Assembly (NCBI GenBank): GCA_018607135.1 | Contig: JABBCA010000084.1 | Location: 1 to 40,782, forward strand | From: Opitutales bacterium | GTDB taxonomy: Bacteria > Verrucomicrobiota > Verrucomicrobiia > Opitutales > Coraliomargaritaceae | Length of the DNA: 40,782 nt | Reading direction: 5' to 3' | In this document: positions 16,218 through 19,756 of the stretch, one piece after another | How the letters are laid out: each line of letters begins with the position of its first letter | Numbering within the stretch: the first letter of the stretch is position 1 | Notes under the pieces: generated by a model | What the model was told of the DNA's origin: nothing | Database searches by the model: none | Seen by the model: only the letters and a program-made list of their open reading frames with translations | Made by a program: the position numbers and the translations under genes

Positions 16218-16694
16218 CTAATACTCAACTGCTGTTCGGCGCGGCTTCTTGAGAACAGTGTAGTCTGCATCGTTCACTTTAGCCGTGTAGAAATACATTC
16301 GTTCATAGCTTTTATTTTCTAAAATTCCTTGAAAATGTAATAGTTCCTCTAAGTTCGCGAATGTCATTTTCTTTTGAAAGACACCTTGCGATGATTTCCC
16401 GCTAATCAAAACGAAATGCTGTTGGCTCTGCTGTGACTGGCCATACATCACCAACTCGATGAAGATGGACTCTATCTGAGAACCATTATCTCCCAAGTAT
16501 ATGTTAGGGTAATCTAGATTGAAAGGGTATTGTCTCACTACTTGCGGCGCAGGTGGCGGAGTCGGCGCAGGAGGCTGAGGTTGCTCCGCAGGCGGTGCTA
16601 AAATGCCCCGCACTAGACTTCGAAAAGCATCATCATCGGCGAATAGCGAAAATGGTAACACACAGCAGACTGCAGTAAGAATACGTTTGTTCAT
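16218..16694 (-). CDS. Secreted proline-rich hypothetical protein
   Basis: 158 aa. Signal peptide 1-19 (hydrophobic core, cleavage after LFA). A Pro/Ala-rich linker PPAEQPQPPAPTPPPAP occupies about 34-50, then a roughly 100-residue domain with alternating hydrophobic residues suggestive of beta structure (IESIFIELVMYG; QHFVLISG). I do not recognise a family. The linker suggests a periplasmic or surface domain held away from a membrane or partner. Start ATG 16694; the gene converges with parE with an 82-base gap that shows no clear terminator. Confidence 0.7.
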   Translation of the reverse strand: MNKRILTAVCCVLPFSLFADDDAFRSLVRGILAPPAEQPQPPAPTPPPAPQVVRQYPFNLDYPNIYLGDNGSQIESIFIELVMYGQSQQSQQHFVLISGKSSQGVFQKKMTFANLEELLHFQGILENKSYERMYFYTAKVNDADYTVLKKPRRTAVEY

Positions 16695-17482: not shown

Positions 17483-18631
17483 TTACTCCACTTGAAGGAT
17501 GAGTCCTTTCAAATAATTACTCTCGGGCAGATTCAGTAAAGTCGGAAAATCAAATGGCTGACCAGTGCGGGCAAATATTCGACCTTCGCGCCCCGCAAGC
17601 GCTGCTGCCGATGCAATTAGCCGTTCAAAAGCATCTAGATTGACTGAAGCTGAACGCGCATAGGTCGCCAAGATTCCGCCGCTTGGTAAACAGCGAAACG
17701 CATCGACGTGCAGAGCACGTAGTGCCTCAAAGTCCCGTGCTTCAACCGATGGCGGGTCCAAAATAACACAATCAAAGTCGCCAACTTCACGCTCAGCTAG
17801 GAACGCTGCGGCATCACAATCCATCGATTCAATAAAACAATCATTCTTCTGTGCATGCGCGCCAATCGCTTTCACGCAGTCTTCAGAGAGATCCAAAGCC
17901 ACCACATGCTCAGCTCCTCCACGCAGTGCATGAAGTGCAAATCCTCCTGCATGCGCATATGCATCCAGCACACAACGCCCCTCACAGAGACTACCCACTA
18001 GTAAATGCTGCTCACGCTGATCGAGGAAGACCTGCGGCTTGTCTGGATTGAGAAAATCCACCCGATACGCCACCGCATCGATCTCGACCCATCGCCCCTT
18101 CAAGTTGTGACCAGTCAAAGTCGTGACGGTGCGCTCTAAAGCAAATGCTGACCTTGCGCTCACATGATTTAGAAAGACAATCTCTTGTGGCTGGCAGGCC
18201 TCTTTTAATAGATCGGCAATCAACTCCAGATGTTGATCCACCGCAGCAGTCTCAGCCGTAATCGTCAAAATCTGCTCATACTGCTCCACGATCAGTCCTG
18301 GTAAATAATCCGCATCTGAATGAATCAAGCGTTGGCAGCCCTCTTCACCGCGCCGCCCCAAGGCTTCATGAATTGCAGAAGCGAGATAAGCCTCTCCCCA
18401 TTCGACGCCTTCGGCAAAACTATAACGCCGCCATGCCCCAACAGGATCGCGTGGATCATAAATACCACAACCGTAGACATGGCCTTGTGCGTCCTGCAAC
18501 TCAACTGCAGTCGCTGGAGCGATCGAATCGTCTACAATGATATCAGCGAGCTGCACCCAAGGGTGTCCCGAGTTTTCGAACGATGCTGCAGTCTGCAACA
18601 CGGCGATGGGCTCTCCTGTAAATGAATCCAT
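17483..18631 (-). CDS. RlmI-like class I SAM-dependent rRNA methyltransferase
   Basis: 382 aa. A PUA-like N-terminal domain (VQLADIIVDDS...GCGIYDP), then an EEHEE-type central segment with FLNPDKPQVFLDQR, then a Rossmann methyltransferase with SAM motif VLDAYAHAGGFALHAL (221-236), acidic VVALDLSE, and motif IV ILDPPSVE (290-297). The order matches RlmI/YccW, the 23S rRNA m5C1962 enzyme. At the site of the RlmI catalytic cysteine (FSCSG) this protein reads TYARSAS with Arg326, so m5C chemistry is doubtful. It sits 12 bases after the LptF/G gene and is probably co-transcribed with it. Confidence 0.85.
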   Translation of the reverse strand: MDSFTGEPIAVLQTAASFENSGHPWVQLADIIVDDSIAPATAVELQDAQGHVYGCGIYDPRDPVGAWRRYSFAEGVEWGEAYLASAIHEALGRRGEEGCQRLIHSDADYLPGLIVEQYEQILTITAETAAVDQHLELIADLLKEACQPQEIVFLNHVSARSAFALERTVTTLTGHNLKGRWVEIDAVAYRVDFLNPDKPQVFLDQREQHLLVGSLCEGRCVLDAYAHAGGFALHALRGGAEHVVALDLSEDCVKAIGAHAQKNDCFIESMDCDAAAFLAEREVGDFDCVILDPPSVEARDFEALRALHVDAFRCLPSGGILATYARSASVNLDAFERLIASAAALAGREGRIFARTGQPFDFPTLLNLPESNYLKGLILQVE

Positions 18632-18643
18632 AATTTAAAGACA

Positions 18644-19756
18644 CTAACGTGCTTTGCGGAAAAGCTGCACAGCCATACCCAACATAATAATATTCGGCAA
18701 CCATGCCGCGAGAAGAGCAGAGATGATTTGTCGCTCACCTAAAATGGACGCCACACTGACTAAGACATAGAAGAAAGCGAAGAATCCCATACATTTTGAG
18801 ACGCCTATCATCGGATTGGTGCGCACACCCGATACCGCAAAAGGCACTGCGATACCCACCACGACTAGACAACTAAAGGGAACCGCAAGTAAAGAGAAGT
18901 AGCGCACCAAATAAGCATGCACCTTCGGGTTCTCCTCTGGAGGAATCAACTCAATGATCTCACGTAGCTCAAAAAGCGAGAGCTCTTTAGGTTTTTTGTG
19001 CAGCGCAAGCATCAAATTTGGATCCTCATTAAAATCTTCAAAAGTCTTTTCTTTAAATGGCAATGCACGTAGCAAGTCGCCCGTCTCGGAGTCGAACAAA
19101 AGCTCTCGCCCATCGACAAACACCCATTGCCCCTGAGTGTTGTCATAATACGCCTCACTCGCGGAAATTCGGGCGGTTTCCACACCACCTGATTCCGACC
19201 GTTGATAAACATTCACACCGGATCCAAGCCAAGTAATTTCACTAAAGCGATTCATGAACCAGAGGCGCCCTTGCTTGCGATTGTCAAAACCTAGGTTGTG
19301 AATCAAACCGATGTTGGAACCTTCGACTCCCTGTTCTGAGGCGAGCTCTAAGTTCTCGATGAATGTGCGCGACTGCTCGACCGACTTAGGCACCACCGAT
19401 GCCGTTAAATAAAGCAACAACAAGGAAAGCACAAGCCCAGCACCCCAGAGTGATCGACTGATGCGAAAGAGACTCGCACCCGTAGCCCGCATCGCAATGA
19501 CTTCATTATTTCGATGCAAGGTGCCCAAGGAAAACAACAACGAAACCAAGAAGGCTATCGGTAAGATAGCAGGCAAATAAGTGGGTAATGCCAGAGCGTA
19601 GTAAAAGCAAATCTGCCCGACACTCGCATGATACTCCAATAGATCGGGCAATGAATCATACATGTTTTGCAAAATAAGAATGCCGACGATCACGCCCAGC
19701 GTAAGCGCAAAGCCCACCGCCCATTCTTTCAAAACATACCGATCAATTAGTGACAT
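18644..19756 (-). CDS. LptF/LptG family permease (YjgP/YjgQ)
   Basis: 370 aa inner-membrane component of the LPS exporter LptB2FG. Three N-terminal helices (about 14-32, 50-75, 98-120), a periplasmic beta-jellyroll domain of about 150 residues, then three C-terminal helices (about 283-365). The family motif is visible in SLGTLHRNNEVIAMRATG. LptF and LptG cannot be told apart with certainty; only one is present, so the partner must be elsewhere. Start ATG 19756, opening M-S-L-I-D-R-Y-V-L-K-E as usual. It diverges from the NSS transporter with 97 bases between starts. Confidence 0.92.
   Translation of the reverse strand: MSLIDRYVLKEWAVGFALTLGVIVGILILQNMYDSLPDLLEYHASVGQICFYYALALPTYLPAILPIAFLVSLLFSLGTLHRNNEVIAMRATGASLFRISRSLWGAGLVLSLLLLYLTASVVPKSVEQSRTFIENLELASEQGVEGSNIGLIHNLGFDNRKQGRLWFMNRFSEITWLGSGVNVYQRSESGGVETARISASEAYYDNTQGQWVFVDGRELLFDSETGDLLRALPFKEKTFEDFNEDPNLMLALHKKPKELSLFELREIIELIPPEENPKVHAYLVRYFSLLAVPFSCLVVVGIAVPFAVSGVRTNPMIGVSKCMGFFAFFYVLVSVASILGERQIISALLAAWLPNIIMLGMAVQLFRKAR

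Follow-up and report, generated by a model that had tools for sequence, protein, structure and literature searches.

Concerted loss of the catalytic cysteine and other active-site features in an RlmI-like protein clade of an Opitutia family

The window analysed here, 40,782 nucleotides of contig JABBCA010000084.1 from an Opitutales bacterium, encodes an orthologue of the rRNA methyltransferase RlmI in which the catalytic cysteine and several other active-site features have been lost in concert, while its sequence is still under constraint. We read it, with a probability of about 0.5, as the positional RlmI orthologue of a family of Opitutia that has lost m5C activity and would now act as a non-catalytic or weakly catalytic factor binding large-subunit rRNA. 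We infer the loss of m5C activity from the residues that have changed; a role on rRNA or in assembly, as well as SAM binding, is suggested less strongly. The features of the window that are needed for the analysis are the following.

17483-18631, minus strand: intact open reading frame of the RlmI-like protein (P0001, 382 aa)
18431-18571, minus strand: N-terminal PUA-like domain (PF17785), residues 21-67, for which RNA binding is predicted from the domain
18032-18040, minus strand: K198-P199-Q200, where 86 of 86 canonical relatives have KTG
17933-17968, minus strand: motif I (SAM-binding), LDAYAHAGGFAL, residues 222-233
17717-17758, minus strand: motif IV, with DPP (292-294) kept, the phenylalanine of DPPxF gone and the loop six residues shorter
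17651-17662, minus strand: remnant of motif VI, Y324-A325-R326-S327, with Arg326 at the column of the catalytic cysteine
18644-19756, minus strand: lptF/lptG-like permease gene, upstream neighbour of the RlmI-like gene, which served to mark the position and to control for evolutionary rate

Positions 16218-16694 of the minus strand encode a 158-aa protein with a proline-rich stretch and, by eye, a signal-peptide-like start; a search of Pfam and NCBIfam gave no match for it.

The window protein belongs to the RlmI-like fold family, as indicated by its passing both domain cut-offs (PF10672, 41.1 bits with a cut-off of 27; PF17785/PUA_3, 28.1 bits with a cut-off of 22.6) and by its whole-chain fold. 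Its AlphaFold2 model (pLDDT 94.5) was compared with 2as0, 3c0k, 1wxw and 4dmg (Z 41.7-45.2), and 371-372 residues could be superposed on PH1915 (Z 45.2), on RlmI of E. coli (3c0k, Z 43.2), the 23S rRNA m5C1962 methyltransferase also known as YccW (NF053718, NF011707), and on RlmO (Z 41.7). In sequence searches of the PDB with phmmer, the two Thermus proteins TTHA1280 (1wxw/2cww, Z 42.3) and RlmO (4dmg, m5C1942) were the top two matches, with RlmI and PH1915 also among the best. The best NCBIfam model of RlmI type, NF053718, gave 189.2 bits for the window protein against a cut-off of 575, a weak test given that a canonical relative of the same family (L022, 316.6 bits) falls short as well. RlmI and the window protein share the PUA-like N-terminus, motif I, DPP and the serine that follows the catalytic column.

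In order to place these features, relatives were collected from the window's family (f1) and from the class. An RlmI-like match was found in 268 of the 286 genomes of the class and in 22 of the 43 genomes of the window's family. Additionally, a scan of species genomes gave nine MAG loci assigned to Opitutia (a class of Verrucomicrobiota), Opitutales, Opitutaceae, Puniceicoccaceae or Verrucomicrobiota. A total of 105 full-length proteins were read: that of the window, 19 from other genomes of its family and 85 from outside the family (mostly better-scoring matches, 25 of them loci from the search and 60 fetched). The canonical set (n = 86) consists of the 85 outside proteins and L022 of the window's family, and the remodelled set comprises 19 proteins of the family, that of the window included. 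Partial or unrelated matches (L023 in G024, L024 and L026 in G011, L025 in G023, L027 in G033) were excluded from the counts, and L141-L145 were also left out. The tree was built with 48 of the 105 proteins, the fold alignment with 50, and the control with the neighbouring gene with 12 genomes. A search of the window's own genome for a second full-length RlmI gave none; the next match (46.7 bits), at C2:113656 and the sole other PF10672 match, is a 2igt-like protein, and a second canonical RlmI was rejected on this basis. This 280-aa 2igt-like methyltransferase (L002, G000:C2:113656-114063) carries the motif DPPSFGRGK. A literature search for inactive or Verrucomicrobial RlmI found nothing.

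RNA m5C methyltransferases use a cysteine as nucleophile, and we take the cysteine at the column discussed here to be that of RlmI, in view of its invariance in the 86 canonical proteins and by analogy with motif VI of Nop2. For Nop2, a published study (PMC4510066) connects the cysteine of the motif VI sequence TCS with m5C synthesis. In the phmmer alignments, Arg326 of the window protein is paired with the cysteine of FSCSG in E. coli RlmI (chain residue 340 of 3c0k by alignment counting) and with the cysteine of SCS in TTHA1280, RlmO and PH1915. The column, which in RlmI belongs to a motif VI of the form [STCA]CS, holds cysteine in 86 of 86 canonical proteins and arginine in 19 of 19 remodelled ones. 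Of the latter, 17 read CRS and two read ARS, namely the window protein and a congeneric protein (G009) that is 71% identical to it and also has YARS; a further congener (G010) reads CRS. All four CGN codons are used for the arginine (7, 5, 4 and 3 times, n = 19). A sequencing error behind Arg326 is unlikely in view of the YARS in G009, the arginine in all 19 proteins and the use of four codons. The alignment places no other cysteine of the window protein at the catalytic column; the cysteines kept in the remodelled clade are C216 (19/19), which lies just ahead of the motif I strand in the AlphaFold2 model, C99 (18/19) and C314 (18/19). As judged from the alignment, the window protein is therefore without a nucleophile cysteine for m5C at the motif VI place. 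The original prediction had described an RlmI-like protein with YARSA, and Arg326, where RlmI has the cysteine of FSCSG, and had proposed an alignment with RlmI, RlmK and close homologues as the check; domains, fold and alignment bear the description out, no other cysteine was aligned with the catalytic column, and the relatives show that the change is clade-wide, extending beyond the single window protein.

The loss of the cysteine is accompanied by other changes in the active site. RlmI features such as KTG before LDQ, and DPPxF with a basic loop and RGY, are missing from the window protein. KTG is present in 86 of 86 canonical proteins and is replaced by KP in 19 of 19 remodelled ones. F296, the aromatic residue of DPPxF, is a phenylalanine in all 86 canonical proteins and in none of the 19, and the distance between P294 and L315 is 27 residues in every canonical protein and 21 in every remodelled one. 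K/R298, R302, G303 and Y304 have been largely or wholly lost (G303 and Y304 from 86/86 to 0/19), the K/R300 of canonical proteins has become an invariant aspartate (D300), and F275 near motif III, found in all 86 canonical proteins, is lost as well. Although the overall diversity of the remodelled clade is lower than that of the canonical set (entropy 0.93 vs 1.63), its motif IV loop (295-305) is more diverse (1.82 vs 0.82) and varies more than about three quarters of its positions. The shortened loop is still constrained, since D300 is invariant. It is important to mention that DPPxF and RGY are traits of RlmI and not a requirement of m5C chemistry, because RlmO is an m5C enzyme that reads DPPTL in place of DPPxF and is devoid of RGY; the loss of the aromatic residue is by itself no argument against m5C. 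RlmO and TTHA1280 differ from the window protein in keeping the cysteine of SCS and in having six more residues in the motif IV loop.

In the tree of 48 proteins, rooted at the midpoint, the remodelled proteins group together (starred support of 100), and their sister is the canonical L022 of the same family (starred support of 99), which points to a single origin of the remodelling. Within the clade, the two ARS proteins form a pair that arose later (starred support of 99). The stem of the remodelled clade is the longest inner branch of this tree (0.68). The lptF/G gene adjoins the RlmI-like gene in the window's own genome and in 8 of 8 other remodelled genomes that were examined; moreover, it lies beside or near the canonical RlmI gene of three sister taxa (G023, G153 and G163, 0.9 kb away in the last), so that the position is shared. 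It was not near the canonical RlmI gene in the stretches fetched from G286, G113 and G056. Given the tree and the lptF/G neighbourhood, the window gene is most likely a vertically inherited RlmI in its place and not a paralogue. When the two proteins were compared in the same 12 genomes, the remodelled stem measured 0.765 for the RlmI-like protein vs 0.125 for LptF/G, and the branch of the canonical sister showed the opposite trend (0.21 for RlmI vs 0.71 for LptF/G); in this control the G163 branch is very long (1.9) and the two genes disagree on the position of G010. LptF/G groups G010 with the window's genome (support 95), but the CRS protein of G010 (L020, G010:C95:79360-80448) joins the remodelled clade at its base, with an unstarred support of 85-89. 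Candidate reasons for this conflict are accelerated evolution, exchange of the gene and hidden paralogy.

Since the remodelling, the sequence has been constrained. The 15 closest pairs, which all consist of CRS proteins from genus g4, gave dN/dS values of 0.085 to 0.197. Between the window protein and its G009 congener dN is 0.22 and dS is saturated, so that the value is well below 1 and no ratio is given. Some distant canonical pairs with ratios of 0.80-0.88 were not used, their dN being about 0.55 and their dS taken as saturated.

The rRNA side was also inspected. The 23S rRNA around C1962 was sought in the family with RF02541, which gave no hit (0 of 1 and 0 of 43 genomes), and a short pattern for the site likewise matched 0 of the 43. 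A looser pattern had exact matches in three of eight genomes, each of them from another family (f2), and was absent, with up to three mismatches allowed, from G019 and G036 (f1) and from G065 and G168 (f2); the stretch searched is highly conserved and corresponds to about E. coli 1945-1970. A single match with three mismatches in G153 looks like chance. When the 23S piece of G113 was compared with the f1 genomes, it recovered either nothing or short fragments lying past the site of interest. The absence of the stretch does not track the remodelling, because G065 and G168 also lack a match and the RlmI match of G168 is of canonical rank. Withheld, unassembled or divergent sequence is among the candidate reasons for the missing stretch.

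Much of the side that binds SAM, together with both ends of the protein, appears to be preserved, whereas the side facing the target base seems to have been dismantled. D223, G229 and F231 of motif I are invariant in both groups, and together with D247 and D292-P293-P294 they are invariant in the 19 remodelled proteins. The same residue occupies at least 90% of both groups at, among others, G22, H23, W25, R101, D108, P111, G112, K198, D204, Q205, D223, G229, F231, D292-P294, S327, Q358, D361 and P363. Within the remodelled clade, conservation is seen in motif I and DPP as well as at the C-terminus and in the HPW segment near the N-terminus, and motifs II and III show only average conservation, owing to which SAM binding is not assured. 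The statement in the original prediction that the SAM site and DPP remain is therefore right for D223, G229, F231, D247 and DPP, and does not hold for F296, F275 and six residues of the loop.

An inactive enzyme would not strictly require so many invariant residues, which speaks against our preferred reading; with D300 and R326-S327, they keep a new reaction in play. It is possible, and we put it forward tentatively, that the protein is an active methyltransferase that has been retargeted and, with Arg326 standing in for the cysteine, uses SAM to methylate a different atom, base or sugar, either where RlmI acts or at some other place in the rRNA. Consistent with this, motif I, D247 and DPP are invariant in 19 of 19 proteins, R326 and S327 are invariant despite synonymous variation in their codons, and the burst on the stem was followed by constraint, with 31 positions that are conserved in the remodelled clade and not in the canonical relatives (the closer kinship of the clade explains part of this). 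The relatives RlmK and RlmQ (YwbD, a functional relative) are kin to RlmI and lack the cysteine, and RlmK works without one in motif VI; base N-methyltransferases of the RlmI fold use the aromatic residue after [DN]PP. RlmK, the C-terminal half of RlmKL (3v8v/3v97), makes m7G2069, and m7G2574 is assigned to RlmQ in PMC12805891. The aromatic residue and its loop are, however, what the remodelled clade has lost. RlmK retains DPPTFSNSK, and 3vse, with an asparagine at the catalytic column and its nearest cysteine two columns earlier, retains DPPSFARNK; the combination typical of RlmK and RlmQ, in which the motif VI cysteine is missing but the aromatic DPPxF loop is present, does not occur in the clade, where F296 is missing from 19 of 19 proteins. 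The proposed analogy with RlmK, as an enzyme that methylates another atom or base without such a cysteine, is weakened accordingly. Methylation of another atom, or action on another RNA, as the original prediction suggested, is nevertheless conceivable. RlmK matches residues 78-382 of the model over 272 residues with a Z of about 25, and its NCBIfam model gave the window protein 27.8 bits against a cut-off of 466; 3vse and SMU.776 (2b78/3ldf) share the RlmI fold with Z values of 40.1 and 37.5.

The invariant pair R326-S327 could take part in catalysis by a novel route. That RlmI has turned into a different RNA methyltransferase, with Arg-Ser in place of the cysteine and the base loop discarded, acting for example on the 2'-OH or another atom near C1962, seems improbable to us, and we know of no enzyme of the RlmI family in which such chemistry replaces the cysteine nucleophile.

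It is quite unlikely that m5C is still made in the clade by Cys325 of the CRS proteins, the ARS of the window protein being then a recent secondary loss. Although 17 of the 19 members have Cys325, it would be an inherited neighbour and not a new residue, since 30 of the 86 canonical proteins read CCS and so carry both cysteines. Moreover, the ARS pair, which dropped this cysteine, does not have long terminal branches (0.17 and 0.21, following a common branch of 0.13, compared with 0.011-0.43 for the CRS proteins), and KTG is lost along with the motif IV loop; a shifted catalytic cysteine was therefore given low weight.

No RlmI-like match was found in 21 of the 43 family genomes, many of them small or incomplete; these belong to genera g2, g3, g8, g9 and part of g7, and six of them are of 1.3-2.0 Mb and 96-99% complete. 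The gene thus seems to have been lost in part of the family, which can evidently manage without it, but a non-functional gene on its way out, or an assembly error, is hardly credible for the window, where the frame is intact, the fold is modelled with confidence, YARS recurs in G009, dN/dS is low in the g4 relatives and dN to G009 is 0.22 with dS saturated.

The concerted loss of active-site features favours the non-catalytic, rRNA-binding role. According to this preferred reading, cysteine would have been replaced by arginine and KTG by KP on a single branch, on which the aromatic residue of DPPxF and the basic, RGY-containing motif IV loop would also have been lost, and m5C would no longer be made. 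The PUA-like domain and the C-terminal segment would bind rRNA, the Rossmann domain would hold the fold and perhaps the SAM pocket, and R326-S327, at the former spot of attack on the base, may hold a phosphate or a base. A possible precedent is mt-LAF24 (6yxx_E4), a protein with an RlmI-like fold that is present in an intermediate in the assembly of the mitoribosomal large subunit of T. brucei. The resemblance in fold covers 360 residues (Z 32.7, 19% identity); the sequence match of mt-LAF24 (profile 28-284) stops short of motifs IV-VI, so that the likeness is one of fold. A literature search for mt-LAF24 found nothing.

For the window's family, the label "m5C1962 methyltransferase" is probably wrong. 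The protein represents an orthologue, still in its place, of a well-known rRNA methyltransferase that is without the residues of its chemistry and yet conserved across species, and as such it may offer a naturally occurring case in which to ask whether rRNA methyltransferases persist because of the methyl group or because they bind rRNA during assembly.
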